Origin: Globodera rostochiensis
Lineage: Eukaryota; Nematoda; Chromadorea; Rhabditida; Heteroderidae
Length of the DNA: 64,000 bases
Direction: 5' to 3'
NCBI GenBank assembly: GCA_018350325.1
Contig: JAEVLN010000020.1
Location: 124,001 to 188,000, forward strand
Position 1 is the stretch's first letter; the number at the start of each line of letters is the position of its first letter. Under the pieces are notes generated by a model that worked only from the letters and a program-made list of their open reading frames with translations, did not search any database and was not told the DNA's origin. The translations under genes were made by a program, and so were the position numbers. Positions 27,418 to 46,923 of the stretch are shown here, in pieces.

Positions 27418-27453
27418 ATGTTTGATTTTTCATTTTCATTTTGTAACACAAAA

Positions 27454-28122: not shown

Positions 28123-28486
28123 ACAGCAATCAAAAATCAGTCAACTAGTTTATGACAATAAACAATTTTTGTGTGCGCTTGCGCGCACCAAATCGTCAGC
28201 CAAATGCAAGAAATTAATACGGGGTGCAACTACGGAACAACTGATGGCATTGGCGGAGATTTGCTTGAACATTCTTTGTTCGCGCTTTCAATTGACAACT
28301 CGTCAACGAAAACGTTTATTACCATATGCAGAATTTGTGAGGAGGATGAGTCGGGCAAGAAGTGAGCGGGGCGCTCGCCGCGTGATTGTTCAAAAGGGTG
28401 ACGGATTTCCAGGATTATTCGCGGCTCTTTTAACACCCGTCCTGATGGAGTTGGCAAAATCGGTTATAGCACCTAAAAACACATAA
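28109..28486 (+). CDS. Small basic virion-core-like protein (125 aa)
   Basis: It begins at the ATG inside the last codons of the ATPase gene (CAAAAATGG context). The 125-aa protein is Lys/Arg-rich with a helical middle (ALAEICLNILCSRFQLT), a basic region (RQRKRLLPY) and a conserved-looking GDGFPGLFAALLTP end. Small basic proteins of this arrangement (ELLAxxEIxxNxL..., basic loop, GGF-like motif) are common next to the ATPase and capsid genes of Mavericks/adintoviruses and have been likened to adenovirus core protein pX. That assignment is from family memory, not a search. The longer upstream frame from 28007 is ATPase sequence read in another frame. Intact and intronless. Confidence 0.75.
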   Translation: MEQFKQQSKISQLVYDNKQFLCALARTKSSAKCKKLIRGATTEQLMALAEICLNILCSRFQLTTRQRKRLLPYAEFVRRMSRARSERGARRVIVQKGDGFPGLFAALLTPVLMELAKSVIAPKNT

Positions 28487-28514
28487 ATACCACAAATTTC
28501 GATTCATTTGTAAA

Positions 28515-29672: not shown

Positions 29673-31441
29673 TGTTGGATACATTGTACAACGATCCATC
29701 ATCGTCAGCGGCGTTTGCAGGGGTCAACGCTCTCTGGAAAGAAGCGCGCAAAAAGATCAAAGACTTGAGACGCAAAGATGTTCAAAATTATTTGGAGGGG
29801 CATCGCACATACACACTGATGCGCCCCCGCAGGGTGCGCTTTCCGAGGGCAAAAACGGTGGCTGCTGGGTTTATGACAGATGTACAAGTTGATTTGGCGG
29901 ATTTTCAGACACTTGCCCGCCACAATCGCGGACATCGATATCTTCTTGTAGCGATAGATGTCCTTTCGAAACGTTTATTTGTTATGCCGTTGCATAACAA
30001 ACGGGCGGAGGAGATGCTGGAAGCATTCAAACGACTCATTGAGCAAATGCCAATGGCACCTCATCGAATTTTTTCGGATAAGGGAACCGAATTTAAAAAC
30101 AGATTACTAAAGGCACATAGAGCTGAGGTACAGCAAGTTGAACCTCAGTCTCCTCCTCGCTTCAACGACACAACAAAATCCGATGCCCCACCACGACCCA
30201 TATCCTCAGCACCAAAAACACCACATCCCCCAGTAGCAAACACTCCCCTTGCACCTCCACCAACCGCACCGACCACCGATAAAACAACTCCCACACCACC
30301 CCCAGCGCCTGTAACAGCAAATGCAACACCAACACGAACTACAGTAAAACTAACCCTTCCCGCACCAGCGCCTGTAAGACCAAAGACAACACCGACACCA
30401 CCCTCAGCGCCTGTAAGACCAAAGACAACACCGACACCACCACCACCGCCACCACCCTCAGCGCCTGTAAGATCAAAGACAACACCGACACCACCACCAC
30501 CGCCACCACCCTCAGCGCCTGTAAGACCAAAGACAACACCACCACTCCCACCTCCTCCACCAACATCGCCACCACCACCACCACCAACACCAACACCTCC
30601 ACCAACACCTCTACCAACTACAGTAAAAGTAACTACACCTGCAAGACCAATCCCAGCACTGACACCAACAAACACTCCGACTACAGTCAAGGTAAAAACT
30701 CCCTCTGCAAACACAACACCCCCAGCACAGCCTCCAACACCATCACCACCAAAACCAAAAACAACACAAAAGGATATAATATTAGTAGCACCAAACCCCA
30801 TTGCGTCAGCATTAAAAAGTGGGCCAGAATCAATACCGAGTCGGCCGGACTCAGCACAACCAACTGTATCAGTGGAAGATCTAATTCTTGATCCACGGAC
30901 TGGCATTGCATATCACAAAGATGACTATAATGCAAGGCAAGAACAAGCCAAAAAGCCGCTGTCAACTTACAATCTTAGAAGCATCATCGATGCTGTCAAA
31001 ATTGAATATCTTGAAAATATTGCACGATTTAGGGTGATTTTCAAGGAGCGAAGCATCAGTCATCTGTCTTTTTCACCACAGTTGGGCTATGTGCTCGGCT
31101 TTCAAGATCCTCAGAATGTGCAGGGTAATGAAATTGCAAAATATGGGTGTGATTTGCGGGGAGGATTCTCAAGTTTTGCGGTCTACTCCAAAGGATTGAC
31201 CGAAAATATGATTATCGGAAATTCGCTGAGTTCTCTGCTTCGTGTTGTATCGGTCAGCGGTGCAACACCCGGAGAGTACAACGAGAAGATTTACGATTCA
31301 CCAATTTTTGCCAGGGTGCTGCCCCGAGAGATCAATGAAATTGAGATTGAGCTGCGCACAATGGACAAAGGCCGACTTGTCCCATTCGCCTACGGTACAA
31401 CGCTGATCGTGTTGATATTTAAGAAGGTGATAAATTTTTGA
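29615..31441 (+). CDS. Fusion: truncated integrase + proline-rich linker + penton (minor capsid)
   Basis: A single 608-aa frame. Residues about 17-170 match the N-terminal part of Maverick retroviral-type integrases: a QNYLEGHRTYTL/RPRRVRFPR-like lead-in, Asp 93 in VQVDLADF, and Asp 155 in FSDKGTEFKN. The domain stops about 10 residues later, so the third catalytic acidic residue and the C-terminal part are missing. Residues about 180-390 are low-complexity Pro/Thr with tandem units of the form SAPVRPKTTPTPP. Residues about 445-608 are a Maverick penton/minor capsid domain (HLSFSPQLGYVLGF, GNSLSSLLRVVSVSG, a RLVPFAYGTTLIVLIF-type ending). An alternative start is Met 17 (29663). The fusion is read directly from the uninterrupted frame; loss of integrase activity is inferred. 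Confidence 0.9.
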   Translation: MDSTNAKDKDQLPNTKMELVLDTLYNDPSSSAAFAGVNALWKEARKKIKDLRRKDVQNYLEGHRTYTLMRPRRVRFPRAKTVAAGFMTDVQVDLADFQTLARHNRGHRYLLVAIDVLSKRLFVMPLHNKRAEEMLEAFKRLIEQMPMAPHRIFSDKGTEFKNRLLKAHRAEVQQVEPQSPPRFNDTTKSDAPPRPISSAPKTPHPPVANTPLAPPPTAPTTDKTTPTPPPAPVTANATPTRTTVKLTLPAPAPVRPKTTPTPPSAPVRPKTTPTPPPPPPPSAPVRSKTTPTPPPPPPPSAPVRPKTTPPLPPPPPTSPPPPPPTPTPPPTPLPTTVKVTTPARPIPALTPTNTPTTVKVKTPSANTTPPAQPPTPSPPKPKTTQKDIILVAPNPIASALKSGPESIPSRPDSAQPTVSVEDLILDPRTGIAYHKDDYNARQEQAKKPLSTYNLRSIIDAVKIEYLENIARFRVIFKERSISHLSFSPQLGYVLGFQDPQNVQGNEIAKYGCDLRGGFSSFAVYSKGLTENMIIGNSLSSLLRVVSVSGATPGEYNEKIYDSPIFARVLPREINEIEIELRTMDKGRLVPFAYGTTLIVLIFKKVINF

Positions 31442-31487
31442 TAATCATTCACTTTTTGTTTTCATTTTAAAAGTTGTCAAAATAAAA

Positions 31488-31949
31488 ATGGTTCATATTG
31501 TTTTTGACCCAAGCATTGTGGGATATGACGAATATGTGCAAACTGGCAGTGGGTTAGCAGAAAACGAAGATTATTTCAAAGGGTCCAGCCCGTTCCAGCG
31601 AGGTTACGGTATTCAAAGAGGTGCTGGGGTGGGTGACGTTTTTCGCGGTCTTTGGCGTTTCTTCCTACCCATTCTGCGCCGTGTCGGTACAACAGTTGGA
31701 GCGGAGGCACTGAACACTGGTCAGAGAGTGTTAGAGAGAGTCGGAAACGAGGGAGTCCCATTAAAGGAAGCATTTGTCACCGAGGGCAAGAGAGGAATTG
31801 ATACTGTATTGGAGAAGGGAGGCTTACCCAAACAGTTTGGAAAGGGTATAAAAAGGAGAAAATTACCCAGTCATCAAACAGTAATTGGAAGAGTGATTAA
31901 AAAGCCTATAAAGAAACGTGTTCGATCAGACGCCTTTGGACTTTATTGA
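31488..31949 (+). CDS. Small pVI-like minor virion protein (153 aa)
   Basis: ATG follows a T-rich/ATTTTAAAAG leader (AAAAATGG). The N-terminus has GYDEYV, then a glycine-rich segment (FQRGYGIQRGAGVGDVF), an amphipathic or membrane-active-looking stretch (LWRFFLPILRRVGTTVG), EALNTGQ and a strongly basic C-terminus (KRRK, KKPIKKR). This layout recurs in Maverick virion blocks immediately before the major capsid gene and has been compared with adenovirus minor proteins such as pVI. I rely on pattern and position, not on a search. The stop codon lies 6 bases before the capsid ATG. Confidence 0.75.
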   Translation: MVHIVFDPSIVGYDEYVQTGSGLAENEDYFKGSSPFQRGYGIQRGAGVGDVFRGLWRFFLPILRRVGTTVGAEALNTGQRVLERVGNEGVPLKEAFVTEGKRGIDTVLEKGGLPKQFGKGIKRRKLPSHQTVIGRVIKKPIKKRVRSDAFGLY

Positions 31950-31954
31950 ATGAG

Positions 31955-33268
31955 ATGGCATTTCACAAAATTGACACTGATAGTGTAAATTCAATAACCA
32001 ATGCCCTCGATCTATTTCGAATTCCGCCAACAAACGTGAGCGTATCATCATCAAAAGTTTTTGAGTTATTGCCCAGTAATCCGCTAACGGATACCCCCTA
32101 CCACTTCAAACTACACTCTAGCCAAAATTTTATTGATTTGTCCAAATGCTATTTACTTACAGAGTTTCGCATTCGCAAAGAAAACGCAACTGGTCAGCTG
32201 ATCAATCTCGAAGCTGACGATCAGGCCGTTTGTCCAATTCAAATGATTGGGCAAACATTCATCCGTAACATTCGCATGAGTATCAATGGGCGTGAAATTT
32301 TCAATACAAACTCTTTGATGGCCTACAAGACTTATTTTTCGCATGAGCTCTCCTACTCTACAACGACAAAAGATTCTCATCTACAAGCCGCTGGTTACTA
32401 TAGGGACCCTGGACTAACACTTGAGGACGGGCCAGGGTGTGTTGCCCGCCGAAATCTGTTTGCGGGCAGCAGAACAGCACAATTTATTGCGAAAATTGAT
32501 GCAGATTTATTCAACCAGCCCCTCTACCTAATAAACTTTTGTGAATTGGATGTTGAAATTATTCCCAACGACAATGACTTTGTGCTTATTGGGCTCAATG
32601 CACCAGTGCGCTATCGCTTTGAATTAACAGGACTTAAAATGTATGTAAAGAAGGTGTCGTTGATGGATGGGTTGGCTTTGGACATTGCGCGAAAACTTGA
32701 ACTGAAACCGGCGAGATATGCAGTGAGGAAGACAATGATGAAATCAATGTTCATCAGCCAGGGCAGATTTGAGTTTACCTCAAATATTTTTATGGATCAA
32801 ATCCCACGCCGTATTATACTGGGGTTGGTTGCCAATGACGACTACGTCGGCACATCGGCACGCAGTCCCTTCAACTTTCAGCCATTTAATGTGCGCGAAA
32901 TTTCTATTATTGCCAATGGGCGATCTTACCCCCAGGCTCCTTACGACCTGGATTACCCCAATAAAAAATACGTACGTGCGTTCAATGACATGAACGAAGC
33001 GGTTGGCTTTACCAACACAACGGAAAGCAACGGTATAACTTTTGAGCAGTATGGAAAAACGCATTGCATTTACGTGTTCAATATGACCAGTAGCGGGGAC
33101 GACCAGGCCGGGCTTTTTGATTTGATCAAAAACGGGACGACAGCAGTGTGCATAAAATTCAGCCAAGCTGTACCATTTGGAGGAATTATGCTGGTGGTGA
33201 TGGGGGAATGTGATGCGCTTGTGATGCTGGACAAAAACCGATCCATCAGTACAGATACCACTATTTAA
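31955..33268 (+). CDS. Major capsid protein (double jelly-roll hexon-like)
   Basis: The 437-aa protein has the features of the Maverick major capsid: SSKVFELLPSNPLTD near the start, GQTFIRNIRMSINGREIF, KTYFSHELSY, DLFNQPLYLIN, a second barrel with RRIILGLVANDDYVG and FNVREISIIANGR, and an ending GGIMLVVMGECDALVMLDKN. An in-frame TTG at 31946 overlapping the previous stop is an unlikely start; the first ATG is at 31955. Length and order fit an intact gene. The last ~30 codons plus the following spacer are partly duplicated downstream (see 33307-33606). It would form the capsid lattice with the penton domain encoded upstream. Confidence 0.95.
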   Translation: MAFHKIDTDSVNSITNALDLFRIPPTNVSVSSSKVFELLPSNPLTDTPYHFKLHSSQNFIDLSKCYLLTEFRIRKENATGQLINLEADDQAVCPIQMIGQTFIRNIRMSINGREIFNTNSLMAYKTYFSHELSYSTTTKDSHLQAAGYYRDPGLTLEDGPGCVARRNLFAGSRTAQFIAKIDADLFNQPLYLINFCELDVEIIPNDNDFVLIGLNAPVRYRFELTGLKMYVKKVSLMDGLALDIARKLELKPARYAVRKTMMKSMFISQGRFEFTSNIFMDQIPRRIILGLVANDDYVGTSARSPFNFQPFNVREISIIANGRSYPQAPYDLDYPNKKYVRAFNDMNEAVGFTNTTESNGITFEQYGKTHCIYVFNMTSSGDDQAGLFDLIKNGTTAVCIKFSQAVPFGGIMLVVMGECDALVMLDKNRSISTDTTI

Positions 33269-33306
33269 ACCTTGAGTTTTACACATTTCATTTCATTTCA
33301 ATAAAA

Positions 33307-33606
33307 ATGAGTTTTAAAAATCTTGCAATTATTCTTTTCTTCCTTCGAATTTCTCTCCCTGTCATTGGCGAAGAAGATGATGATGAGGGACTCCCGCCTT
33401 ATCAGGAATATCTGAGAAGAGCGGCTTTACGCCGCTTTTCTATACCTATCCAACCGCCATCACCTTCAACTACTACATTGCCCTCAACAATTCCTTTCAA
33501 TCGGACGATGACATATAATGGAATAATTCGGATCGTGATGCGTGGATGTGACGCTGTTGTGATGTTAGACAAAGACCGATCAATCAACCGCATCACTACT
33601 ATTTAA
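33307..33606 (+). CDS. Chimeric small secreted protein with duplicated capsid tail (99 aa)
   Basis: The N-terminus is a signal peptide (SFKNLAIILFFLRISLPVIG) followed by GEEDDDEGLPPYQEYLRR, nearly the same as the next gene. The C-terminal ~30 residues (GIIRIVMRGCDAVVMLDKDR, ending TTI) instead match the end of the major capsid protein. At DNA level, about 33510-33740 repeats about 33180-33400 (capsid 3' end, spacer and start of the signal-peptide gene), so a tandem duplication built this hybrid. It lacks the transmembrane segment of its sister. It is intact as a frame; whether it is made or useful is unknown. Confidence 0.7.
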   Translation: MSFKNLAIILFFLRISLPVIGEEDDDEGLPPYQEYLRRAALRRFSIPIQPPSPSTTTLPSTIPFNRTMTYNGIIRIVMRGCDAVVMLDKDRSINRITTI

Positions 33607-33647
33607 ACTCTTTTTTTTACAGTTTTCATTTTCATTATTAAATAAAA

Positions 33648-34034
33648 ATGTATTTTAAAAAAGTTGCACTTGTATTATTCTTCCTTCGAATTTCTCTCCC
33701 CATCTATGGCGAAGAAGAATTACCACCGTATCAGGAATATTTGAGAAGAATTGAACAACGTCGTTTGTTCAACACTATCCTCCCGCCCACAACCACCCCA
33801 TCAACAATCCCAAAGATTGAAAAACTTGTCGTCGATGAGCCGGTAGCTGCTCTTGTCCCGCCACTAATCCAGTTGTGTAAGGACACAACAGGCGAAAACA
33901 ATTTTTTCCAGCAAACAATTTGCTGGGCTTTATTTGCCCTATATTTGATGATTATTGTCAGTTTGATTCTTCAACAACTTTGTTCACTTTTTTGGCTAAG
34001 GAATGGACAGCATTCAAATTTCGACAATTTTTAA
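33648..34034 (+). CDS. Signal-peptide, single-pass membrane protein (128 aa)
   Basis: It starts after a TTTTTTTTACAG acceptor-like site and a TTTTCATTTTCATT leader (AAAAATG). It has a cleavable-type signal peptide (KVALVLFFLRISLPIYG), a short acidic/proline ectodomain (EEELPPYQEYLRR, TTTPSTIP), two cysteines (about 81 and 95), and a C-terminal hydrophobic helix (ICWALFALYLMIIVSLILQQ). Predicted type I topology with a very short tail. It overlaps the protease gene by 32 bases. It is the probable parent of the preceding chimeric copy. A membrane protein in the virion block could serve in envelopment, exit or entry, but nothing in the sequence decides this. Confidence 0.75.
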   Translation: MYFKKVALVLFFLRISLPIYGEEELPPYQEYLRRIEQRRLFNTILPPTTTPSTIPKIEKLVVDEPVAALVPPLIQLCKDTTGENNFFQQTICWALFALYLMIIVSLILQQLCSLFWLRNGQHSNFDNF

Positions 34035-34464
34035 ACTAAATCGGCGAACCGCACAAGTCTTTCGGGGCTGCTTCGCCAGTGACCAATTGCCTTCGCCCTT
34101 TACCCTACAGTACCCCGCCGCTCTCATCGTGAACAGAGACGCCCACCACAAGGAGGGCTCCCATTGGTGCGCCATTTACGCGAGAGGACTGGCTGCGCCA
34201 GTCTTTTACTACGATAGCCTCGCTCAGCCCATACCAGCTGTCATTACGTCATCCTTCCTCAGCAAATTTGAGACGGGCACAAGGAAGAACATCCGTCCAT
34301 ATCAATCACAGTGGGCCGCGACTTGCGCTGCCCACTGCATTGTCTTTATCCATCACATGGCATCCCATGGGAATTCGTTCGATGATTTTCTCCACATCCT
34401 CGATACTTGCACGAGCCCCGATATGTATTCATTAATCATTTTGAATAAAATGATGAACGTTTGA
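34003..34464 (+). CDS. Adenain-like maturation cysteine protease
   Basis: 153-aa protease of the adenain/Ulp1 fold (peptidase family C5-like), expected to cleave virion precursor proteins. The catalytic set is visible with family spacing: His54 in GSHW, Asp71 in YYDSL, Gln101 and Cys108 (Q-x6-C in QSQWAATC). A second Cys at 112 follows. The ATG lies within the end of the membrane-protein gene. This is the last gene of the plus-strand virion block. Full length for Maverick proteases, with no frame damage. Confidence 0.93.
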   Translation: MDSIQISTIFKLNRRTAQVFRGCFASDQLPSPFTLQYPAALIVNRDAHHKEGSHWCAIYARGLAAPVFYYDSLAQPIPAVITSSFLSKFETGTRKNIRPYQSQWAATCAAHCIVFIHHMASHGNSFDDFLHILDTCTSPDMYSLIILNKMMNV

Positions 34465-35144
34465 AATTTTTCTATAGGTTTTGGGCAGTCATTGCACAAG
34501 GCAAAGGCATTGATAAATGACTCTGCCGAATAAAACGCAGTCGTGGAGACCGAAAGCTCATTTCTTGCACAATTTCATTTGTGCATCTTTCCTTGACGAG
34601 ATTGCACTGACCAGTGCAAAAAGGCTCAGCTTAGGCTTAGGCTTAGGCTTAGGCTCACTTAGGCTCAAACTTAGGCTTAGGCTTAGGTTCAGATTGCCAA
34701 TAAGCAACACGTCTGTCGTTGACAGACGCTGTTATATCAACAGGGCGGAGCTTAATGTCCAAAACCAAATGGGTTTGGAATTCATTCATTCCATATTGTT
34801 GTAATTTTTGCTGTTAACCAGGGCGGTTGCTCAATTTATTGAGCACCGTTTATCCTGGCAGCAATCTTTTAGCTCTTCAAGGTTCTTCACATTTCAAAAC
34901 TAATGTTCCGAGCCGTTTAGGTGCCCTGTCGTCTTGTGTTTCATGGAAAGGCAGTGCGCAGCTCCTCAGGCCAAGCTGGGTTTAATTTTTATCAAATATT
35001 TGACGAACAGCCGTCGATAGCTGATGACGAACAGCCGTCTGTAGCTGTCTCTTACCATATCTTTGCCATCCCACCATTTTCTTGAATCATTTTAAAAAAT
35101 TTCCATTTTTTAACACTCTCTCTCTCTATCAATAGATTTGAAAA
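34465..35144. promoter_or_regulatory. Hairpin-rich spacer between virion block and polymerase
   Basis: The 680-bp spacer has no convincing gene. It contains a series of short hairpins: GCACAA/TTGTGC at 34567-34584, TTGCACT/AGTGCAA at 34602-34619, CGTCTGTC/GACAGACG at 34710-34728, and a longer imperfect one at 34818-34858 (CGGTTGCTCAA/TTGAGCACCG core). It also holds a TTAGGC array (34625-34690), a GGGCGGAG box (34743-34750) and a two-fold direct repeat of GACGAACAGCCGTC (about 35003-35046). A CT-rich tract and an AATAG acceptor-like site precede the polymerase ATG. A regulatory or replication role is inference. Confidence 0.45.
34625..34692 (+). repeat. Interstitial TTAGGC telomere-type repeat
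   Basis: About nine copies of TTAGGC or one-off variants, interrupted by CTCACTTAGGCTCAAAC. TTAGGC is the canonical nematode telomere unit. A 95-residue open frame across it (Leu/Gly and Leu/Arg runs) is just translated repeat. Confidence 0.85.
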
Positions 35145-38100
35145 ATGCAACCCTCCAAACGCCCATCAAATTTTAATATTAATGATATTCTCGCACCAAA
35201 AAAGCCGCGTCACGGCTTTCTCATCAATCAACTTCTTGGGGTCGTCCATATGCTTGGCAGTGTTCAAAGCGGCGATGGGCCATCAACATCATCAGCAACA
35301 ACACCCAAAAAAGCGGCCAAAGACTACGTCAAGAAACTGGATTGCAGCCTTGAGCACGTGGCGAAGTTCAACTATGTGAAGGTCCGCTCGGCGTTCAGCA
35401 TACAGGAGGTGCCCGCCGATCCCGAAGGCATGCTAGCAGGCATCTTCCAGCACTGTATAGACGAGGCGAAGAAGGACAGCCGAGACCGAGGTGTGCACCC
35501 GACTCACCTCGGGTGCATGATCAGCAGCCCGCTGCTGACCGGCGGCGACATCCCCGTGCCGGTTCGGCAGCTCACCGACAACACTATCGACACCATCCTG
35601 AACCAGTTCAACAAAGTTGCCCAGAGTAAGCAGCAGAAGAACGTGACGCTGTGGGGAGAGCCGTTCACCGTCGTCATAACAACGGTGGACCGCACTGGAC
35701 TACCATCAAAACGCCGTGTCAGAGGGGGTGCGCGAAGAAAGCTGGCACAAGTGCACCACAAAGTGCACGACCAGTGCCTTATCAAGGTTTTTTTATCCCA
35801 AATAATCAAGTGATCATCAAATAGGAAAAAAAAGTTTAAGATTCACAACGACAACGACAGTTTTTGTCTCTTCTACGCGCTACAAGCAACAATGCTGGAC
35901 AAAACTTGTGGATGGCCGCGCATAAAGTTCTACAGATATGTTAACAGCCGACAAGGGCAGGAAGGACGATTACGACAGGACACTTTGAAGTTGATGAAGC
36001 AAGTGCGTGCCCCGCGCAATTTGAAGGCATACGACGCGGACACCTACGTGCCTCGCGTCGTTGATCATTGGAACAACACACAGCAAAAACACCGCTTTGC
36101 GGTGTTCATCTTCGGCTCTACTGGACAGTATAAGCCGATCTACAAATACGTGGACAACAGCTACGACACGCCGCTGTTGCTGTACTTCAACAACGACCAT
36201 TTCGATGGAGTGCAAAAGCAAGGCGGTCTCTTTGGACGAAAATACTGCTTGGAGTGTGAAGTGCCCTACCGCAGAGCATCACAGCATAACAAATGTTGTA
36301 AGGCCCGCTGTATGCTCTGTGGACGTGCCGGGCCGTCCTTCCCCTGTTCACCGGAAGCAGATTTCTTCAAGCACTGTGCAGGGTGCAAAAAGAACTTCAA
36401 AACCAACATGTGCTATCTGCATCATCTCAGCTCAAACTTTTGCCGGAGGTCTAAAAAGTGCAAGGATTGCGGAGTTATTTGGGACGTCCCAAACAACACT
36501 CAAAAGGGACGACAGGTATTTCACAAATTTTTATTTGTGAAATAATTTGTACAAAATTTAGGGGCATAAGTGCGGCGAGAGATTTTGTACGTTATGCAAC
36601 AACTACCACAACATCGAGCGCGGCTGCTTCATCCAGCCACTCGTACCAAAGGAAAACGATCCCTTCCGCATTGTTGCCTTTGATCTGGAAACAATGCAGC
36701 ACCTGTCAGTCGATGCTGCGCATCCGAACAATCGAAGTCATGAGCCGAACTTTGTGTCGGCAAGGATTGCGTGCCCCGAGTGCATTGACAACGGCAAATG
36801 GAGGAGTGAAACAACGGGGTGCAAAGTGTGTGGGCAGCATAGGACAGTCGCCTTCTGCCAACGACCTTTCTTCGACACGAAAGTGGACAAACAAGTGGTG
36901 GCCGACAACCCTTTGGAAGCCTTTGTGGATTGGCTTGTCAACGACCTGCCAATGAAATACGACTCCTACGTTTATTCCCACTTTGGCGGACGCTTTGACA
37001 TGGTCATCACGTTCCGCGAACTGTTCAAGATCGGGTTTAACCCCGACATGCTCCGCAAGGTATTTTGGTGTTTGTGCAATTTTTCAAACTTTATTGTGAA
37101 AAAATTAAGGGGAATAAAATGTACGAGATGCGTGTGCGCAAGCAAAAGGGCCGCAACCCCAACATTGTCTTCAGGGACTCCTTCAATCTGATGCCTTCGG
37201 CATTGGCGGCACTGGTTCCGCAGTTTGGGCTTGACGTCGCCGACAAGCCCTTCTTCCCACATCTTTCTAATTGTCCACAAAACTACGGACAACGGGTATT
37301 TCCCACTCCCGACGACTACCTCGCCAGCGGGATGATGCCAGAAAAGCGGCGGCAGTTCGACCAGTGGTACGAACTGCACCAGCACGAGCCCTTTTATCTC
37401 GACGAAGCTTTGCCATCGTAAGTTTTGACAAATTAAATAAAATTTATTTTTTTTTCTTGTACAGGTACTGTACGAATGATGTCGACATTCTAATGGAGGC
37501 GTTGGTCGCCTTTCGCCGGGAATTCTTCGAGGTTTCCCGGCGAAACGACTACATAGACGGGATCGATGAACGACTGAATCACGACGGAATCGATGCTCTC
37601 CGCGAGACGATGACCATCGCTGGCGCCTGCATGCGCCACTTCAGAACAAACCACCTTCCGAGCGAACATCTGGCGATTGTTCCGGAAAAGGGGTACGACA
37701 ATGCGCAGAACCAGAGTTTGCTGGCTCTGCGCTTCTTCTACTGGTATGCGGAAGAAAATGGAGTGCAAGTCCAAACGGCCCACTCGCCTGGCGGCGAGAA
37801 GCGTGTGGCCCAATACAGCCTCGATGGCTGGATTGAGGCGGAGCAGAGAGCCATTGAAGTCAACGGTAACTTTTTTTTTTTTTTTTTGGTAAAGACAAAA
37901 CCAAAAACAAAATTTTAGGCTGTGTTTGGCACGGTTGCGCCGAATGTTATCCGGACGACAACCAAGTCCTGCCAAACGGGAAGACTGCCGGAGCAGTGCG
38001 CGAGCGGAACTCAAAGAGACTTGAGTTTCTTCGAACCCAAGTCTCAAGGGTGGACGTCTTCTGGGAATGTGAAATCCAGCGGATGCTGGATGGAAGCCGA

Positions 38101-39801
38101 GAAATGAGGAAGAAGTTCGCGGACTATGTGGATGATGGTCCGCTGGAGATTCGCGCAGCGTTCACCGGCGGGCGAACTGGACCAGCAAAACTGTTCCACA
38201 AGGCGGCAGAGGGCGAGAAGATCTCGTATTACGACTTCACGTCCCTCTACCCCTACATCAAGTAAGTTTTGTTGTTTTTAAAAATTTAATAAATTTTTAA
38301 TTTCGTCACTCGTTTTTATTTGTAATAATAATAAATTCAGTTTCGTCACACGTTATCCAATCGGCCATCCCACCGTCCACGTGCTCAACGAAAACGTGGA
38401 ATGGACAACATCTGCACACAACCCATATCCTTTGGCGCTGCTGAAAGTATGGGTTGTGCCTCCTCGCAAAACTGACGTGCCCGTTCTTCCGGTTAAAGTG
38501 GACGAGAGGCTGTGCTTCCCTTTGTGCATGAAATGCGCAAAGGAATACCCAACAGGCGGAGTGGACGACAACTACCACTGTGCACATAGTGACAACCAAA
38601 GGGGCTGGGTCAGCACCTGCACTTCATTGGAGCTGAACGCTGCACTTGATGAAGGCTACCGCGTCACCAAAGTGTTCCGCGTGCTGGCATACGACGAATC
38701 TGACGACAAACTCTTCCGCCCATACATTGCGGAGTTTATGACAAAGAAGATTGAGGCAAGCGGCTTCGACGCTGCCATCAAAGGAAACGCCGAGCTGGAG
38801 GCTGAGTTCGTCCGAGAGTGTGAGGAACAATTCGGCATCACCATTGACCCAGCCAAGATGGTGCCGAACAAGGGAAAGCGGGCCCTTGCGAAGCTTTGCC
38901 TCAATAACTTATGTAAGCTTTTTGTTTGGATTGTTTAATTATGAAAAATTTTTTTAAAGGGGGAAGATTTTCTCTGCGCAACTTTGGCTTGTCGCAGACT
39001 CTGATTGCAGATGACCCGGCTGTTCTTGCGGAGTACTTGGACAACAAGTCGATCGACGTCACGTCAATCGATGAGCTCGATGAGGACCACATCCTCATCA
39101 GCTACATGACGAAGCAGGAATGGGTCGAGGAGCATTCCTGCTCCAATATAAGTAATTTTCGAGTAAATTTTTTGTGTAAAATCTTAAAAAAAATTTTTAG
39201 TCGTATCGCTTTGGACGACTTCAGCAGCTCGTCTCCTGCTGCTTAAAGCAATGCAGAAGGTGGTGCGGTCTCCCGGCTGCACTCTTCTGTATACGGACAC
39301 CGACTCCCTCGTCTTTGTCCACCCCAGCGACCGCTGTCCGCTGGAGACGGGCCCCCATCTGGGGCAGTTTACCGATGAATTTCCACTGCATGTCATCGAA
39401 GAATTTTGCAGTGGAGGCGCAAAACAAGTACAATTTTTTTTTTAATCGATTTTATTTCAATTTTATTGTAATAAAAAAATTTTTAGTACGGCCTGAAGCT
39501 GAAGCGAAAGGACGCGGACGCCGACAACGAGTACATCCTCAAGGTCCGCGGCATCACCCTCAACAACGACGTGATGCAAAATCAGGGACTTTGCTACAAC
39601 ACCTTCAAGGAGGCCGTACTACGATATGCGAACACCGGAGAAGTTGAGAGAATCCAAGTGATGTATCCCAATTTCCTCCGCCCATCAATCAAAGATGCGC
39701 ATGTGACTTCAGCCCCCCTTCAAAAATGTTATAAACCCTATGTGGGGAAAGGGATTGTCAGCTCCAATTTTAATGTTTTGAATTTTGGCCACACTTTGTA
39801 A
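35145..39801 (+). CDS. polB: Family B DNA polymerase (protein-primed type), 10 exons, 1390 aa
   Basis: Exons: 35145-35786, 35841-36515, 36562-37059, 37110-37417, 37465-37865, 37919-38261, 38341-38912, 38960-39151, 39201-39427, 39487-39801. All nine introns (46-79 bp) have GT donors and T/A-rich AG acceptors, and joining them keeps one open frame. Exon 2 opens with NDNDSFCLFYALQ and has a Cys-rich region (CLECEVP, CCKARCMLC, CKDCG). Exonuclease motifs: FDLET (Asp480/Glu482) and HFGGRFD. Polymerase motifs: A, DFTSLYP (Asp947); B, KLCLNNLWGRF (about 1140-1149); C, YTDTDS (Asp1243/Asp1245). C-terminal KVRGITLN is also typical. It would replicate the element from its ends. The first intron acceptor (GTTTAAG, 35840) was chosen for frame and homology fit. 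Full length and apparently functional. Confidence 0.93.
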
Positions 39802-39824
39802 TTTTATTTACTTTTTATCGATAA

Positions 39825-40155
39825 ATGGAAGATGAAATTTGAAAATAATTAAGAATTGGAAGATGAAATTTGAAAATAATTAAGAATTGGAAGATGACTT
39901 TTAAAAATAATTAAGCGTCAGAACATGTTGTTTTTAGGTAGAAAAATGCATAATTAGCGAAGAGAAGATGACTTTTCAAAATAATTAAGGATCAGAAGAT
40001 GAAATTTTGAAATAATTAAGGATCAGAAGATGAAATTTTGAAATAATTAACAGTAGGAAATGTAATTTGAAAATAATTAAGCGACAGAAGATGTCGTTTT
40101 TAGGTAGAAAAATGCATAATTAAGCAATAGAAGATGAAATATTAAAATAATTAGT
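39825..40155. repeat. Minisatellite, ~31-bp units
   Basis: About ten degenerate units built on AGAAGATGAAATTTGAAAAT followed by AATTAAG and a short variable part. Two longer variants share TTTTTAGGTAGAAAAATGCA. The array fills the spacer between the 3' ends of the polymerase gene and the convergent PAZ gene. A GT-rich stretch (GCGTGTGCGCGTG and GGGGTGTG units) follows at about 40185-40250. Confidence 0.85.
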
Positions 40156-40250
40156 GATTTTGAGTAAATTTTGGTCAATTTAAGCCAAAACATGCGTGTG
40201 CGCGTGTTTTTGGGGTGTGTGCGTGCGTTTGGGGTGTGCGCGTATGCGCA

Positions 40251-40796
40251 CTACCAACAAGTGTATGTCGGTTGACTACACTCATCACGTCCAGTGTTCT
40301 CCTCATCTTCTTCATCGATTCGGAAATTAAGTGCTGAATCGGTTGTTGAACTTGAACTTGCCCGTTGTTGCGTGGTATCAATCTCTTTGAACATTCGCCC
40401 TATCCAATTTGTTGAAGCTTCGTCTTCAACAAGCTCAAGCAACTCCATCGGGTAGAAACGGTCCTCCCCTCCGCTTGGAAAGCGCTCGATTATGCATGGC
40501 ACATAAGGCAGATGAATTCTTATTCTATGCCGGGCATAGAAGTGTGCCGCAATGTTGACATTGTACGGCTTACACAGTCTTCCATATGCGGGTGTAAAGG
40601 CGGCTCCCTTTGTCGTTATGCCGCCGACAAAGAAAGTTTTGTTCATGCCGTTTCGGTCCTTGTATGTAGTCCGGACTTTTCGTCCGGTCACAGAGTTGAG
40701 TGCGAGAACACGGTCCTCAGGATGATTCAGGCGGTCGCGCAGCGATTTCGTTTGACAGCTTAGAAGTTGAGCGCAAAACTCACTGACAAGCACCAT
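40251..40796 (-). CDS. Stand-alone PAZ-domain protein (Argonaute/Dicer-type PAZ, no PIWI)
   Basis: 181 aa from the Met at 40796 (CAAAATGG context). An upstream in-frame Met at 40925 would give 224 aa but would leave almost no room for a promoter before the divergent gene. Residues about 30-125 read as a PAZ domain: a KVRTTYKD strand, FFVGGITTKGAAF, NVNIAAHFYARHRIRIHL, the PYVPCI strand and FYPMELLELV, in the order seen in Argonautes. PAZ binds the 2-nt 3' end of small RNAs. The rest is a Ser/Thr-rich and acidic tail (DEEDEENTG). No PIWI, MID or RNase III domain follows; the stop comes before a GT-rich spacer. Inferred roles: small-RNA decoy or RNAi interference, or a captured and reduced host Argonaute. 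Intronless, unlike nearby genes. Confidence 0.75.
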   Translation of the reverse strand: MVLVSEFCAQLLSCQTKSLRDRLNHPEDRVLALNSVTGRKVRTTYKDRNGMNKTFFVGGITTKGAAFTPAYGRLCKPYNVNIAAHFYARHRIRIHLPYVPCIIERFPSGGEDRFYPMELLELVEDEASTNWIGRMFKEIDTTQQRASSSSTTDSALNFRIDEEDEENTGRDECSQPTYTCW

Positions 40797-40966
40797 TTTG
40801 ACAAATCTGATAAAATTTAAATAATGATTTTGAATTTCCGTAGGATATTCAATGCTTTCAGTAAAAATGTAAAGCTCCGCCCATTTTAAACCTTGACCAC
40901 ACCTCCGCTCAAAATCACAAATCATTTGTGATTTCTCTTCTTACTTTAACAAAAATTCCAGTAAAA
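40797..40966. promoter_or_regulatory. Divergent promoter region between PAZ gene and Lys-rich gene
   Basis: The gap between two divergent starts. It contains a GGGCGGAG box on the minus strand (plus-strand CTCCGCCC at 40875-40882) preceded by TTTAAAAT in the minus direction, about 80 bp from the PAZ start. It also has a short palindromic AAATCA/CAAATCATTTGTGATTT stretch at about 40912-40932. The plus-strand leader before 40967 is pyrimidine-rich (TCTCTTCTTACTTT) and ends in TTCCAG, a possible trans-splice acceptor just upstream of the ATG. Confidence 0.45.
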
Positions 40967-41506
40967 ATGTCCTTCCCCAAATTGTCCACCACCACCACTG
41001 AGATTTCATCTCTGCCCACTACAGTAACCTCCTCTCCTCCCGCCAAATTCGCTGAGACAAAGTGGCTGGGCAAGAATAAGCGCCCACCTTGCGATGAAAA
41101 TGCGGAGAAGAAGAAGAAGCCTACCAAACCGACTGGACCAAAGGAAGTGCCGCCAGCTATAAAGAAGACAAAGATGGAAGACAGTGCTGTGAAACCGCAA
41201 GAGTCGGAGCCTCCAGTGGAAAAGAAGCGTAAAGTGGAGGACAGGGAGATTTGGAAGCTCATGAAAGGGAAATATCTATTGAGCTTCTATCTTTGCCCCG
41301 GTAATTTTAAAATTTATTATTTAAAATTTGAAAAGCTCAATTTTCCAGATGACTGGAAAAAGCTGTACAACCGAGAGAACAAAGTTGTACGCCAGGAGAA
41401 TGGACATTTTGCTGCGCGGTTCGAACTTTGTGCGGACTGTGCCTGGGCAAATGTTAGAGCAACTGACTATTTGGCCCCTCCGAAGAACAAGAAGATGGAT
41501 GAATAG
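40967..41506 (+). CDS. Lys-rich hypothetical nuclear protein, two exons
   Basis: Start at the ATG in GTAAAAATG, just after a TTCCAG acceptor-like site. A 48-bp segment at 41301-41348 has intron ends (GTAATT...TTTTCCAG) and AT-rich content. Its length is a multiple of three, so both spliced (163 aa) and unspliced (179 aa) forms are open; splicing is more likely. The N-terminal half is Thr/Ser/Pro- and then Lys-rich, with a nuclear-localisation-like motif (VEKKRKVED). The C-terminal half is globular-looking (WKLMKGKYLLSFYLCP, RFELCADCAWANVRATDYL) with a CxxC. No family recognised. It shares a divergent promoter with the PAZ gene, so the two may be co-expressed. AATAAA signals follow near 41555 and 41579. 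Confidence 0.7.
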   Translation: MSFPKLSTTTTEISSLPTTVTSSPPAKFAETKWLGKNKRPPCDENAEKKKKPTKPTGPKEVPPAIKKTKMEDSAVKPQESEPPVEKKRKVEDREIWKLMKGKYLLSFYLCPGNFKIYYLKFEKLNFPDDWKKLYNRENKVVRQENGHFAARFELCADCAWANVRATDYLAPPKNKKMDE

Positions 41507-41777
41507 TGATCTAATTTGACTTGCACAAATACATTTATATTTTGTCTTTTTGTTTAAATAAATTTGAACGACCCTCAAATAAAATCATGGAAGATATTAA
41601 TTATAAAGTCAGTGCCTCCCTAATGGTAATCAATCAACTAACAACCGAATGCCGATTTTGAAAGCGGAAACAATGACAGTTGGTATTATGAGAGTCACAG
41701 GGTCAAATGGTTATATCTTCTCCTCGTCCTTCTTCCCTTTTTAGGCTCAATTTTTATGTTAGGATTTTAAGGATAAA
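41507..41777. promoter_or_regulatory. Intergenic: polyadenylation signals and leader of RING gene
   Basis: AATAAA signals near 41557 and 41579 would end the upstream transcript. A CTTCCCTTTTTAG acceptor-like site (ending about 41743) lies about 33 bp before the next ATG and fits nematode spliced-leader addition. A 25-codon ATG frame starts at about 41587 but shows nothing recognisable. Confidence 0.4.
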
Positions 41778-42500
41778 ATGTCATCATCGTCCTCAACAAC
41801 GCCTTCAAACAATGATGCAATTACGGATTTGCAATCCGAATTGTCAACTTTGCGAAAATTGTGCCTTAACGCTACTACACGGTTGGAGGCAATTGAGGAG
41901 TGGGCGGATGAAATGAATTTGTCGTGGCCTGGCAAGGAAAATGAGTCAGGAGCAACGTCGTCAGCGACTTTAGGTTAGACACTTTTTTTACACCAATTTT
42001 GTACCCATTGATGTTTAGCCCTCAAAACGACAATGATGGAAAAGCGTCTTGAGCACCAAATTGACAAAAGTGTCAATGATTTGGCTCATGAAGTGTATGA
42101 GCGCATCGACCGGGGAGAGCGGGATGGTTTTCTTGAAATGAAGACAGAAATGGCGTATGGAATGCAGCGCATCGTTCAGCTCATGGAAAAGAAGTTGGAG
42201 CAGGAACATCTTCGCACAAGGCGTGTAGCTCAACAAGCGATAATTGTGGCGAAAGGAGTTCGTATGGTCCCCAAGAGCGAGGGCTGCACGTCACCAAAAT
42301 GGGCAGCGATCTGCGTCGTCTGCCAGGAAGAGGGCAAGGCTGAGTTCGGCCTTGTCTCATGCGGATGTGTGACAGTGTGCGGGGAATGTTTGATTGGGCA
42401 TATTGGTGGGGACGATTTAAAATGTTTGGGTTGCAATCGCCCAAATAATTCCCCTGTAGCACTGTATGAATGCTTTGGTCCCCATCCCACTCTATCTTAA
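41778..42500 (+). CDS. RING-type zinc-finger protein, two exons (225 aa)
   Basis: Exons 41778-41973 and 42019-42500, joined in frame across a 45-bp intron (GTTAGA...GTTTAG). The N-terminus is Ser/Thr-rich, followed by heptad-like helices (ITDLQSELSTLRKLCL and, after the intron, MEKRLEHQIDKSVNDLAHEV), suggesting a coiled coil. The C-terminal domain has eight metal-ligand candidates in RING spacing: CVVC, CGC, CGEC and CLGC, with Cys in place of the usual His at the fourth position. It is therefore a RING-HC/IAP-like finger, likely a ubiquitin E3 ligase. Viral and transposon RING proteins often act on host defence factors; the target here is unknown. It faces the membrane-protein gene tail to tail. 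Confidence 0.75.
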
Positions 42501-42678
42501 ATTTTGTAAAATTCAATTTTTCTGAAATTACTGCAATGAATATATTTACCAATTTTTTCATTCCACTTGTAATTTTTTTAAAATGCTGATTAAATGCGGT
42601 TTTAAATATTAATTTGATGTAAAAATAATGTGGGCAATGAATAGGCAAAAATTTAAAAATTTGATCATTTCTGTGAAA

Positions 42679-43357
42679 TCAATCTTCCGCGTATCCGTTG
42701 TTTTCCCCATCGTCTTTCTCGGAGCCGTTGGATGACACATCAGCCAACGCGATAGCGTAGTAGTCCCTCCCGTGAGTCAACGCAGTCACATCCAATTGGC
42801 CTGGTCCGGACTCGACCGTTGCCGACACTTCCTAAAATTCAAATTTTTTTATTTAAAAACCGTTCAAAAACTGGCGCTTTACCTCCTCGGCATGGTTAGT
42901 GCCTATGGCACTCAACTGCAGAGGAGGCGGAAACGGGCGGCGCGACTCCATAACAGTAGGCGACATTTCACGACGTCCCTGTTTAGAGATTAAAATACAA
43001 AATTTTTGAGACAAATTTCAGTGTACCTTGCGATACGAAGCCAGAACAGGGGCTTGAGCCGGGCGGCTTTGGCTGTAAAACATCCAAAAATTGACCATCT
43101 CAAATGGATAATGAATTGAGTTTAAAATTTGAAAAATTTACTTGCAAGATCAACATCAGAAAGACAGCCAAAAAGATGAACAAAATGAAAGTATTTTCAT
43201 TGGATTCGGGCGGAAAATTTGGAAAATATCCGACAATGGCTCTCGGGATACATAAAATTGGTTTGTTGTATGGCAAAGGGCGCATACATGAATACCCAAC
43301 AATCGGGCATTGGCAATCTTGGATCAACGTCCGATTGAATGATGAAGGAAGGATCAT
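42679..43357 (-). CDS. Single-pass membrane protein with proline-rich tail, 3-4 exons
   Basis: On the minus strand the ATG at 43357 opens a 72-codon exon (43142-43357): a Cys-containing N-terminal region (DCQCPIVGYSC, PILCIPRAIVGYFPNF) and then a hydrophobic helix (TFILFIFLAVFLMLILQ), with a GTAAAT donor. Clear later exons are 42883-42978 (GRREMSPTVMESRRPFPPPL) and 42679-42831 (EVSATVESGPGQLDV, ending YAED), joined by GTAAAG...TTTTAG. A further GC-rich exon at 43027-43072 (ACAG acceptor, AAG-GTACAC donor) breaks the frame if used as is, so it may be skipped or use the GTATCG donor. Without it the product is 154 aa. No signal peptide; N-out type III or N-in topology undecided. A TTTATAG acceptor-like site (about 43379) lies just upstream of the ATG. 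The antisense 93-codon frame at 43104-43385 is judged a shadow. Confidence 0.6.
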
Positions 43358-43688
43358 TTCAGAACAGATTTTTGCTTTGCTATAAATCAAAATTACAAAT
43401 ATTTGGGTTTTGGTTGATGTGAATGAATGAATGAATTGTTGGGATGGCCAATGGCCGAAACGATTTGAACAAAGGGGAAGGGGTCTTAGAGAATTGTGAG
43501 ATCGTTATCGTTTGTGGCCTTTTATCCCCCTCCCCCTCCTCCTTCCCCCAAAGAATGATTGAAAATATATTATCAATTGTGTTGATGTGACAAAAAGGCA
43601 AATTGAAAAATGAAATGCGCAAAAAACGGACAACAGGGATGACTGTTCACCTCCCTCACAGACTCGGTCGTCAACGCTGTCAAAAGTG
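43358..43688. promoter_or_regulatory. Intergenic upstream of membrane-protein gene
   Basis: Read on the minus strand, a GGGGGATAAAAGG box (about 43521-43533) resembles a TATA element, followed by pyrimidine-rich sequence, a (TTCA)n stretch (about 43415-43432) and the TTTATAG acceptor-like site before the ATG. The rest is the 3' end of the Gln-rich gene. Hydrophobic frames exist on the minus strand here but none has a good ATG. Confidence 0.35.
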
Positions 43689-46128
43689 TCACTTGCGCTT
43701 CTCAACTCCGTTCATTTGCTGCTGCTGCTGCTTTTTCTTCTCTTCTTTCTTTCTTTCTTTCTCTTTGTACAGAGCTATCGCCTCTTCCGACATGCAGTCC
43801 ACCACGAACTGATCAAGCTGTCCAATTGCCTACAACCAAAAATGACCATTTCAAAAATCAAAAAGAAAAGTTTCGACCTTTGTCCGTTGACGTTGCGTGG
43901 CATCCTTGGAAAACATGATGTCGCGGGCAGTCCGAGCTGGCGCATTGGTGCCGACCAATGCTTTGACTAAAATGAAATAAAAAAGGTGAACAAATAGTGG
44001 GTTTTTTCTTACCCTCATGGTATTGAGCGTCTTGCTCAAGGATGCAAAGCAGGTGGTGTGGCGTGTCATGGCCCAATATGGCTGCCAGGGTACCCGACAC
44101 GGTGGTGAGTTCCGTGAGCCGTGTGGCGGCATCTATACATGCCACCATGTCTGGCGCAATGACCCAACATTCTTGACCTCTAGCAACTGGAACAATTTTG
44201 AAATATTTCGTTTTATTATTTTATTATATTCACGTTTTTCTGTTAAAGAAAGGAAAACCCACCACAGCGTCGGGGCTATAAATAACCCGGAACACTGTGG
44301 TGGATTTCCTGTCCAGGCTCCAACGGGGCTATTAATAGCCCGGAAGGTGCCTGGACCTAACTATGAAACTGTTTTTGTTTTTCTTTTATTTATTTATTTA
44401 ATATTTGTAAACTCACTTTTCCAATCGACATAATAAGCTCTTTCACCGTCACTGTGGACGAACAGTGCCAACAACGCCTTGATTTCGAACTCCTCCTCCT
44501 CTTCGTCCACTTCTTTTCTTCGTTTTTGTTTTTGTTGTTGAACGACCTGCGGTACCGGTGTCACAATGCGAACTTTAAACTAAAATTCAACAAAATTATT
44601 ATTTTGTACAAGAATAATTTTAATAATTAACTCACGGAAGTGTCATGTTCCCGGTTTGCGAGTTTTTTTTTGCCGTTTGCGTCTGTTGTTGAACTTTTTG
44701 CGCTCTTCTGCAGTCATTGTGGCCACTTGGCCAGTTTCGTCCTCGGCCGGGTCCAAAGTGAGCGATGCGACCAGTTGCTCGCCCATCGCCTCCTCAATGT
44801 CAGCAACATTCTGCAAAAAATACAGTATACAAAATTTATTAAAATTAAAATTCAAATTTAAACACTCTGACCGCTGTTGGCGGTGTTGGTGGTGCTGCCA
44901 CCGACGAAGACGCCGATTGTTGTTGTTGTTGAACAGCGCGTTGACGCTTTGGCTTGACCTGCTGCTCAAATCGTTGTGCTGCGGTTTCGGCAGCCGCCCT
45001 TCGTGGTGGGCGAACTGCCGTGACAGTTGGATACGGAGTGTTCTCCTCTACAATTTCGAAAGCCTGCAAAAACTTTAAATTTTATTGATTTTTGATGACA
45101 ATTTGTTAACAAAATTGGCCAAAAAACAAATTTTTTTTTGAATTTATGGCTTAAAAATTACCCCTGTTGTTGTACATGTTGTCACATTGATCTCGTCGTC
45201 AACGTCCTGTTGCAGGTGGTGCTGCTGTTGTTGGACACCGCCTCCATCAACGGCTTGTTTTTGCTGTTGGTGATGAACTTGGTCCATCACCTAAAAAAAG
45301 TATTCAAAATTTACACTTGGTGTACTGTATAAAATTAATTTTCAAAAATTATTTTGAAAAATTGTTTGAATTCGGGTTAACAGATACAACTCACCGTCTC
45401 GTCCAGTTGCTGCTGCTGTTGTTGGACACCGCCTCCATCAACGGCTTGTTTTTGCTGTTGGTGATGAACTTGGTCCATCAACTAAAAAAGTGTTCAAAAT
45501 TTACACTTGGTGTACTGTATAAAATTAATTTTCAAAAATTATTTTTGAAAATTGTTTGAATTCAGTTTAACAGATACAACTCACCATCCTGTTCTCAACT
45601 CCCTGTTGAAGTTGACCAACACCGCCTCCTTCAGATGATGATGGTTGTTGTTGCTGCTGAACGTGTTGATGATCACCATCGAAATTCAGCCTTTCCTGAA
45701 ATTGCAATTGATAACTCTAAACCAGAATACAACAAAAAAAGTTTGAAATTAAAATTTAATTATTATATAATTTTAGAAAGTTAAAATTGACTCAATTTGT
45801 TAAAATTTTCCCACCTTTATCTTTGTTGGCAAAGCCAACGATTGTTGTTGTTGTTGTACGGGAACAGCGCGTTGACGAGAGATGACACGGGAGCGAGGAT
45901 TGCTTTTGTTGAGGACGATGGTTCGAGCGCGGTGGATGCTGTTGACAGAAAGCCGGCGAGGAGCACACATTGTTGGAAGCTGCTTCTTCTTTCTTCTTTG
46001 CTCCTGAAAAAAAAAAAAGTGGTTTAAACATGTAAATAACAAAATTAAACGTTTTTTACCGGGGGATTGATCATTTTGTGGAATTGGTCGTCAAATTTGG
46101 GTAGGGGTGATTGGGCAATTTTCTTCAT
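43689..46128 (-). CDS. Gln-rich, chromo-like protein; 11 exons with one frameshift
   Basis: Minus-strand exons: 46060-46128, 45815-46003, 45585-45695, 45395-45481, 45162-45290, 44872-45063, 44636-44810, 44417-44579, 44013-44186, 43878-43966, 43689-43829. Every junction has GT/AG ends and keeps phase, except that exon 7 carries one extra base. An A9 run (44663-44671) throws the frame into a TGA at 44643-44645; with one A fewer, 505 aa read through. Exons 2-6 are Gln-rich (VQQQQQS) with basic patches. Exons 4 and 5 are near-identical duplicates (MDQVHHQQQKQAVDGGGVQQ). Exon 8-9 has a chromo-like segment (FEIKALLALFVHSDGERAYY, then VDWK). The end is Lys/Gln-rich. A nuclear DNA or chromatin-binding role is inferred. 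If the A9 run is real, a 7-exon truncated protein or frameshifting results. Confidence 0.65.
44251..44356. repeat. Two stacked cruciform-like hairpins in an intron
   Basis: Hairpin 1 (44251-44310): outer stem of about 16 bp (CCCACCACAG/CTGTGGTGG) around an inner GGGCTAT/ATAACCC stem. Hairpin 2 (44311-44356): outer stem GTCCAGGC/GCCTGGAC around an inner GGGCTATTAATAGCCC. They lie in the 230-bp intron 8 of the Gln-rich gene, which is far longer than its neighbours, so they look like an insertion. Confidence 0.8.
45241..45590 (-). repeat. Tandem duplication of one exon with its intron (~191 bp)
   Basis: The exon at 45162-45290 and the exon at 45395-45481, each with its downstream intron start and upstream acceptor, are nearly identical. 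The unit repeats at a 191-bp offset. The intron text GTGAGTTGTATCTGTTAA is shared. Splicing keeps frame in both, so the protein carries the repeat. Confidence 0.85.
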
Positions 46129-46374
46129 CTTTAATACGAAAATTTATTTATTTATTTGGGTAAGGGGGAATGGGGGGAGGGGTTCATAAGAAATATTGTT
46201 AGTGAGTGAACAATCCGTTCACTCACAAAAATGACCTCTGCATACCCAAGCCTTCGATGGCTTGGGTAAGCAGAGGTCATTCTCTCTGCAGCGACGCCAT
46301 CGTTGCCCCCCCCTTTTATTTTCTCTGACTCTCTGTCTTCCCACTCTCTCCACACTTTTCTCCTTCTCTGTCTC
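46129..46374. promoter_or_regulatory. Right-arm leader with two strong hairpins
   Basis: Hairpin A at 46202-46226 has a perfect 10-bp stem (GTGAGTGAAC/GTTCACTCAC, 5-nt loop). Hairpin B at 46230-46281 has a 23-bp stem with a single mismatch (core GACCTCTGC...TACCCAAGCC) and a 6-nt loop. They stand between the start of the Gln-rich gene and the inverted repeat. A CT-rich stretch then leads into the repeat. Candidate promoter, replication or processing structure; no counterpart was seen inside the left repeat. Confidence 0.6.
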
Positions 46375-46917
46375 CCTCCTATCTTTCTCTAACTGCCTGC
46401 CTCCCCACTCTCTCTCTCTCTCTGTCTTTACTTCTCCTTCTCTGACTCCCCCAGACCCATCCCCTCGCCGCGGATGCCGCGGCTCTACGGACCCCTCCCC
46501 TCGCCGGCTCCTTCCCCTCCCTCGCCGCGGATGCCGCGGCTCCTTCCTCTCCCGCGTGCCGCGGCACCATCAAAGGATCAAATGGCTCTCGGACCCTCCC
46601 TTTGACACCCCTCGGACCCCTCCCCCCTACACCCACGGACCCCTCCACTAATTATCCCCCTCCCCCCACAACCCCCCTATACCCTCGGACCCCTCCCCCA
46701 CACCCTCGGACCCCTCCCCCACAACCCCCCCTATACCCTCGGACCCTCCCCCACAACCCCCCCCTATACCCTCGGACCCTCCCCCACACCCTCGGACCCT
46801 CCCCCACAAACACCCCCACACCCACGGACCCCTCCCCTAATTAATTACCCCACAAAGGCGGCAACATCAAAGGTGTGAATTTTCACACCCTGAAAAGGTC
46901 CGGCAACTGGTACTACT
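46375..46917 (-). repeat. Right terminal inverted repeat
   Basis: It mirrors the left repeat: CT-rich tail, GC-rich CCGCGG stretch, C-rich tandem array, palindrome and terminal GGTACTACT. It is slightly longer than the left copy because the number of C-rich units and a duplicated GC-rich segment near 46480-46560 differ. The inner boundary is approximate. Confidence 0.93.
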
Positions 46918-46923
46918 TATTAC
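46918..46923. repeat. Right target-site duplication (TATTAC)
   Basis: TATTAC directly follows the terminal GGTACTACT of the element and matches the left duplication exactly. The element therefore still sits at its original insertion site, without end erosion. Confidence 0.95.

Follow-up and report, generated by a model that had tools for sequence, protein, structure and literature searches.

This study analyzed a 64,000-nucleotide stretch of the Globodera rostochiensis genome (contig JAEVLN010000020.1, positions 124,001 to 188,000 of the forward strand; hereafter, the window). It contains a complete Maverick/polintovirus element that carries a minus-strand gene for a PAZ domain followed by an acidic tail of 55 residues (Table 1). 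The results revealed, with near certainty, that tylenchid nematode polintoviruses recurrently carry a gene for a stand-alone PAZ protein. An earlier note on this stretch had described an Argonaute-type PAZ domain lacking a PIWI part, with only a short acidic tail, encoded in a polintovirus-like element, and had looked to other elements for the same gene. These structural claims, including the recurrence, are strongly supported; some lineages have no tail.

Structure prediction for the window protein returned a PAZ fold rather than another fold, and the nearest folds in two structure searches were the PAZ domains of Argonaute or Piwi proteins (best 50 rows). The window protein and the PAZ domain of human Ago2 (hAgo2) were 21% identical over their structural alignment. 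The PAZ profile PF02170 was matched at E<=0.01 by 58 of the 61 family members, with a best value of 1.6e-11. The window copy scored 25.4 bits, under the 28.8-bit cut-off, which was passed by eight Maverick-linked matches in the genome, one of them only together with its in-frame neighbors. Chance similarity was rejected as the explanation of the PAZ match.

We compared the family alignment with H271, R277, Y279, F294, Y311, R315, and H316 of hAgo2, the positions of the pocket that holds the RNA 3' end. The H271 column held tyrosine in all 59 rows with a letter there. Lysine occupied the R277 column in 53 of 60 rows and phenylalanine the Y279 column in 59 of 60, and the Y311 column held histidine (48/60) or tyrosine (12/60). 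The R315 and H316 columns retained arginine and histidine, respectively, in 57 of 60 rows each. Six of the seven positions retain an identical or similar type of residue, and F294 falls in a gap.

To our knowledge, PAZ domains otherwise occur only inside Argonautes and Dicers. The MID and PIWI domains that accompany PAZ in an Argonaute were absent from the PAZ-only genes, and the RNase III domain that accompanies it in a Dicer was absent from the 14 window open reading frames (ORFs) scanned with Pfam; a genome-wide search for it was not made. No Piwi match lay within 10 kb of any of the 45 PAZ hits obtained in the P0001 search of the genome, whereas 12 of 13 control exons, namely the other PAZ exons, recovered only by the Pfam search of the genome, had such a match 1.0-3.2 kb away. 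A PIWI exon downstream of PAZ was looked for and none was found, and a spliced host Argonaute was rejected because no Piwi match was nearby. The PAZ exon at locus L016 (G000:C5:2617651-2617848) lacked a Piwi match anywhere on its contig, and the 3.2-kb stretch covered there matched no Maverick gene at E<0.05; this host-like exon was placed among the Maverick PAZ sequences in the weak tree described below.

The 45 PAZ hits represented 43 loci because C5 and C56 each gave two; some copies were broken and split between frames (C5:1067311/1067481 and C56:4417882/4418265). A Maverick capsid or integrase hit was located within 20 kb of 38 of the 45, although such proximity applies to only 3.3% of the genome. 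None of the 13 other PAZ exons had such a neighbor within 20 kb, and all were more than 230 kb from the rows used. Of 99 capsid rows and 110 integrase rows, 83 and 71, respectively, entered these counts; the rows left out were weaker ones, consisting of additional fragments, disrupted pieces of integrase, and integrase-like rows located in long frames of retroelement type. The remaining seven PAZ hits corresponded to six loci. Remnants of Maverick genes surrounded five of them (L048, L049, L051, L052, and L053; 9.9-kb stretches), and the sixth, L050, duplicates L033 (99.6% over 2.5 kb), a locus near a Maverick capsid and integrase.

The gene occupied at least four different places among diverged Maverick lineages, and its strand varied as well. 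Eleven loci of the window lineage and lineage b carried both genes; at 10 of them PAZ lay 6.8-8.7 kb from the capsid gene and on the opposite strand, the exception being C18 (2.6 kb, same strand). In another lineage, PAZ followed directly behind the capsid gene in the same orientation (C24: 631133 then 633913). In the C19 lineage it lay between capsid and integrase, and at L055 and L063 it was flanked by polymerase and ATPase matches and lay on the opposite strand.

Relatives were also identified in other genera. A protein search returned 64 at E<=0.001; the named sources were G. rostochiensis, Heterodera schachtii, H. trifolii, and Meloidogyne enterolobii, and the others were mostly derived from metagenomes. 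A profile of the diverged lineages returned 10 relatives at E<=0.01, two of them from G. rostochiensis. According to protein tables rather than contig sequence, H. trifolii has two capsid/PAZ pairs with consecutive gene numbers on equal-sized contigs (niasHT_003308/003309, 478,126 bases; niasHT_025072/025073, 288,134 bases), and P0048 (PAZ) and P0136 (capsid) share the same sources and the same longest contig (22,616 bases). Many family proteins are named "PAZ domain-containing protein" in UniProt. One PAZ-only member from H. trifolii (P0028, niasHT_006312) is named "Effector protein" there, and the gene of adjoining number, niasHT_006311 (P0015), also encodes a PAZ-only family member. Searches of the viral collections, which may include few animal polintoviruses, revealed no relative among the 24 pattern stretches that the family alignment picked out in IMG/VR viral contigs, no match at E<=0.001 in the BFVD structure library, and no match for P0001 at E<=0.1 in PHROGs. 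Nine pattern stretches in prokaryote genome contigs likewise included no relative.

We determined the ratio of nonsynonymous to synonymous substitution rates (dN/dS) for open copies only, leaving out those with broken frames. Among nine open copies of the window lineage, the ratio was 0.13-0.26 in 28 of 29 computable pairs, and one young pair gave 0.57 on few changes; seven of the 36 pairs had saturated dS, and many other dS values were near saturation. The comparison of the window copy with the C34 copy spanned 224 codons, of which 43 precede the likely start, and the lineage b pair gave no ratio. In the lineage whose protein is PAZ alone, all 10 pairs of five copies yielded 0.04-0.22. These findings indicate that the PAZ protein is under purifying selection, and a decaying capture was rejected on the same ratios. 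A FastTree tree was constructed from 75 columns and 34 sequences (23 of Maverick type, 9 of the 11 aligned host PAZ exon pieces, and two PDB chains). The tree was weakly supported, and we therefore drew no conclusion from it about the class of Argonaute that gave the PAZ domain.

The lengths of the PAZ proteins in this genome ranged from 117 residues, which is PAZ without a tail, to 277 residues. The existence of this PAZ-alone lineage shows that the tail is not essential to this kind of protein and marks the PAZ domain as the working part. Tails were counted in 58 members, that is, the 61 aligned members minus three without a recognizable PAZ end motif. All 58 were net acidic, 56 contained tryptophan, 44 contained at least two, and 43 ended exactly in tryptophan. 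When the set was thinned to 47 representatives, 45 were tailed and 30 of these ended in tryptophan. Tryptophan accounted for 3.0% of tail residues versus 0.04% of the PAZ part. A C/L-S/T-Q pattern occurred in 50 of the 58 tails, and literal WG or GW in only 10.

The element displays the terminal inverted repeats and 6-bp target-site duplication expected of Mavericks/Polintons. The integrase scored 30.3 bits against rve, slightly under the 32.6-bit cut-off, and also matched PHROGs transposase families (best E 8.2e-5). The DNA_pol_B_2 matches (E 3.9e-4 at 38381-38938 and 0.04 at 37271-37918) were in separate ORFs, both under the cut-off.

Table 1. Features of the Maverick/polintovirus element and its PAZ-only gene (window coordinates).
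Feature	Position	Strand	Remarks
Complete Maverick/polintovirus element	24664..46917	.	22,254 bp; ends 5'-AGTAGTACC; inverted arms and exact ends
Target-site duplication TATTAC (6 bp), left	24658..24663	.	
Target-site duplication TATTAC (6 bp), right	46918..46923	.	
Left terminal inverted repeat	24664..25229	.	82% identity with the right one, gapped
Right terminal inverted repeat	46328..46917	.	
Packaging-type ATPase, candidate	27418..28122	+	Weak Pox_A32 match, E 0.0054, under cut-off
Retrovirus-like integrase	29615..30106	+	rve E 5.1e-7 (longer ORF containing the integrase)
Double-jelly-roll major capsid protein	31946..33268	+	AlphaFold pLDDT 84; matches to PBCV-1, Sputnik, and mavirus capsids
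Adenovirus-type protease, candidate	34003..34464	+	Peptidase_C5 E 0.016, under cut-off
Family B DNA polymerase, pieces	37271..38938	+	DNA_pol_B_2
PAZ-only gene	40251..40796	-	181 residues
PAZ domain, residues 1-126	40419..40796	-	Range from model confidence and structural alignment
Acidic tail, residues 127-181	40254..40418	-	Low model confidence; W-x-G-x-x-F, then G-R-x-E-C-S-Q, C-terminal W
Basic low-complexity protein gene	40970..41506	+	Divergent from the adjoining PAZ gene; no Pfam match
RING-finger protein gene	42033..42500	+	zf-C3HC4_3 E 3.9e-4, under cut-off

Several other features of the elements were noted. The lysine-rich basic gene is separated from the PAZ gene by 173 bp and was matched in the PAZ-bearing stretches L048, L049 (weakly), and L054. 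The RING-finger gene, which could be another host-directed accessory gene, has a 95% identical copy in the PAZ-bearing remnant L048. In a single ORF (29615-31441), the beginning of the integrase is joined to a long region rich in proline and to a C-terminal part, which may resemble a second capsid-type Maverick protein. A direct repeat (33297-33377/33638-33718, 83%) lies where a small ORF begins; this ORF has a hydrophobic leader and also a hydrophobic stretch at its C terminus. Elsewhere in the genome, capsid hits at 43-50% identity (C19, C12, C18, C45, C11, C21, C33, and others) consisted of numerous nearly identical copies whose capsid genes share similar in-frame stops, representing either a burst of damaged elements or intron-bearing genes. 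At G000:C28:463054-473339, the integrase is present in two copies, along with a fragment of the capsid gene and a complete one, approximately 5.5 kb apart, as if the element had been partially duplicated in tandem.

A PAZ-only protein that is carried by an element and kept by selection suggests that such elements blunt host silencing. In the congener G. pallida, transposons are matched by 22-26-nt 5'-triphosphate G-RNAs and by small amounts of 22-23-nt small interfering RNAs (siRNAs) (PMC4323106). The PAZ pocket would grip the 3' ends of transposon-directed host small RNAs of these two kinds. The free binder would then compete with the PAZ domain of Argonaute at loading, or strip guides from it, and the element would be silenced less. 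In the tailed lineages, the acidic tryptophan-bearing tail might, speculatively, direct the protein to Argonaute or to a silencing compartment. The earlier note had also named Piwi-interacting RNAs (piRNAs) as a target; this is unlikely because the clade is reported to be without piRNAs, and none were found in G. pallida (PMC4323106). We lean toward the combined statement that the recurrent polintovirus PAZ gene encodes a binder of small-RNA 3' ends that lowers silencing, its mechanistic half being the inferred one. More tentatively, and with clearly less confidence, the PAZ-only proteins may form an old, recurrent counter-silencing class that takes small RNAs made by host RNA-dependent RNA polymerases by their 3' ends, with tailed lineages steered to Argonaute and the moving position of the gene reflecting a long arms race with WAGO silencing in hosts without piRNAs.

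Several observations weigh against this reading. The aromatic F294 of hAgo2 is aligned to a gap and the Y311 equivalent is mostly histidine in the family, so the affinity of the pocket could be changed. An isolated PAZ domain binds RNA rather weakly and without sequence preference, and an effective sponge would therefore need high expression or targeting. The 22G-RNAs of Caenorhabditis elegans are bound by Argonautes, which limits a sponge for free RNA. From the capsid side, a PAZ hit lay within 20 kb of 32 of 45 capsid clusters, leaving 13 without one at first look. A profile search of five of these 13 identified PAZ at C14, C17, and C12:5959721, and found none at C65 (approximately 9 + 8 kb of flanks) or C9 (approximately 3 + 6 kb).

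The PAZ protein might instead serve the element's own nucleic acids, handling 3'-OH ends of DNA or RNA in protein-primed replication, integration, or packaging, without relation to host silencing. The gene is encoded alongside capsid and polymerase genes, is under purifying selection as a core gene would be, and has a pocket that recognizes a 3' end rather than a sequence; DNA binding by the AGO2 PAZ domain has been reported (cited in PMC6361761). However, PAZ is not known as a polinton core gene, and no mention of it as one was found among the open-access papers listed. Its place and strand shift between lineages in the manner of an accessory gene, and its closest folds among the best 50 rows are those of Argonaute or Piwi proteins. 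We consider this role unlikely.

An equally improbable alternative is a direct antagonist of Argonaute, in which the tail docks onto Argonaute as WG/GW suppressors do and PAZ competes for the guide 3' end. The consistent acidity of the tails and their frequent, often terminal tryptophans agree with such docking, and P1 of sweet potato mild mottle virus (SPMMV) binds AGO1 through WG/GW motifs (PMC2904775). The scarcity of literal WG/GW and the tail-less lineage argue against it. The coexistence of PAZ and capsid genes in a single element, together with the secretion of an Argonaute by a parasitic nematode (PMC6468290), would be compatible with a protein that transports or shields small RNAs for use by the element itself, such as packaging into virions to silence competitors or host genes; with no MID/PIWI to hold the 5' end, RNA bound by PAZ could not guide targeting by itself, and we regard this as very improbable. 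A functionless captured Argonaute exon or an assembly artefact, to which only the broken copies point, is almost certainly wrong given the low dN/dS, the open frames in several diverged lineages, the relatives in three genera, and the exact element ends with their target-site duplication.

The proposed outcome, blunted small-RNA silencing, would liken the PAZ protein to viral suppressors of RNA silencing. Some of these suppressors bind small RNAs. We know of none built on a PAZ domain, and none was found among the open-access papers listed (best 20 of 170 in one listing). Some bind Argonaute through tryptophan motifs (PMC2904775). VANC of the Arabidopsis VANDAL elements would be a further analogy, being an element-borne gene that counters host silencing, but VANC is described as a sequence-specific protein that acts against epigenetic silencing (PMC5735166, PMC10398659), whereas the PAZ protein would act on small RNAs. 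The element resembles other nematode Mavericks in its inverted repeats starting with AG, its 6-bp duplication, and its integrase and double-jelly-roll capsid genes, along with pieces of polymerase B and a candidate ATPase, and differs from those described in having a PAZ gene as cargo; compared with the PF02170 domain of Argonautes (AGO/WAGO), that PAZ is encoded by a mobile element, has no MID/PIWI, and bears an acidic tail or none. Mavericks are listed as widespread in plant-parasitic nematodes (PMC11118728), and the cargo named for nematode Mavericks comprises a putative fusogen, wosp proteases, and krma kinases (PMC10680173). No account of a Maverick PAZ gene was found among the papers listed in the open-access literature searched, several listings giving the best 5-20 of up to 2,201 papers, and the excerpts of PMC10380595, PMC6361761, PMC12910113, and PMC7593179 (on Meloidogyne graminicola Mavericks) mention PAZ and Mavericks apart or not together.

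The assignment to PAZ is not itself new, since many of the proteins are so named in databases; the link to Mavericks, the recurrence, and the missing Piwi are. The UniProt names carry no tie to Mavericks, so that genes for RNA interference or effectors may be miscounted in the catalogues of cyst and root-knot nematodes. The PAZ gene is an accessory gene of Mavericks, probably directed against silencing. If so, it would offer a rare example of a recognizable gene against small-RNA silencing in an animal DNA element, and a PAZ-only gene under selection across many Maverick lineages would provide a natural experiment on PAZ acting alone.
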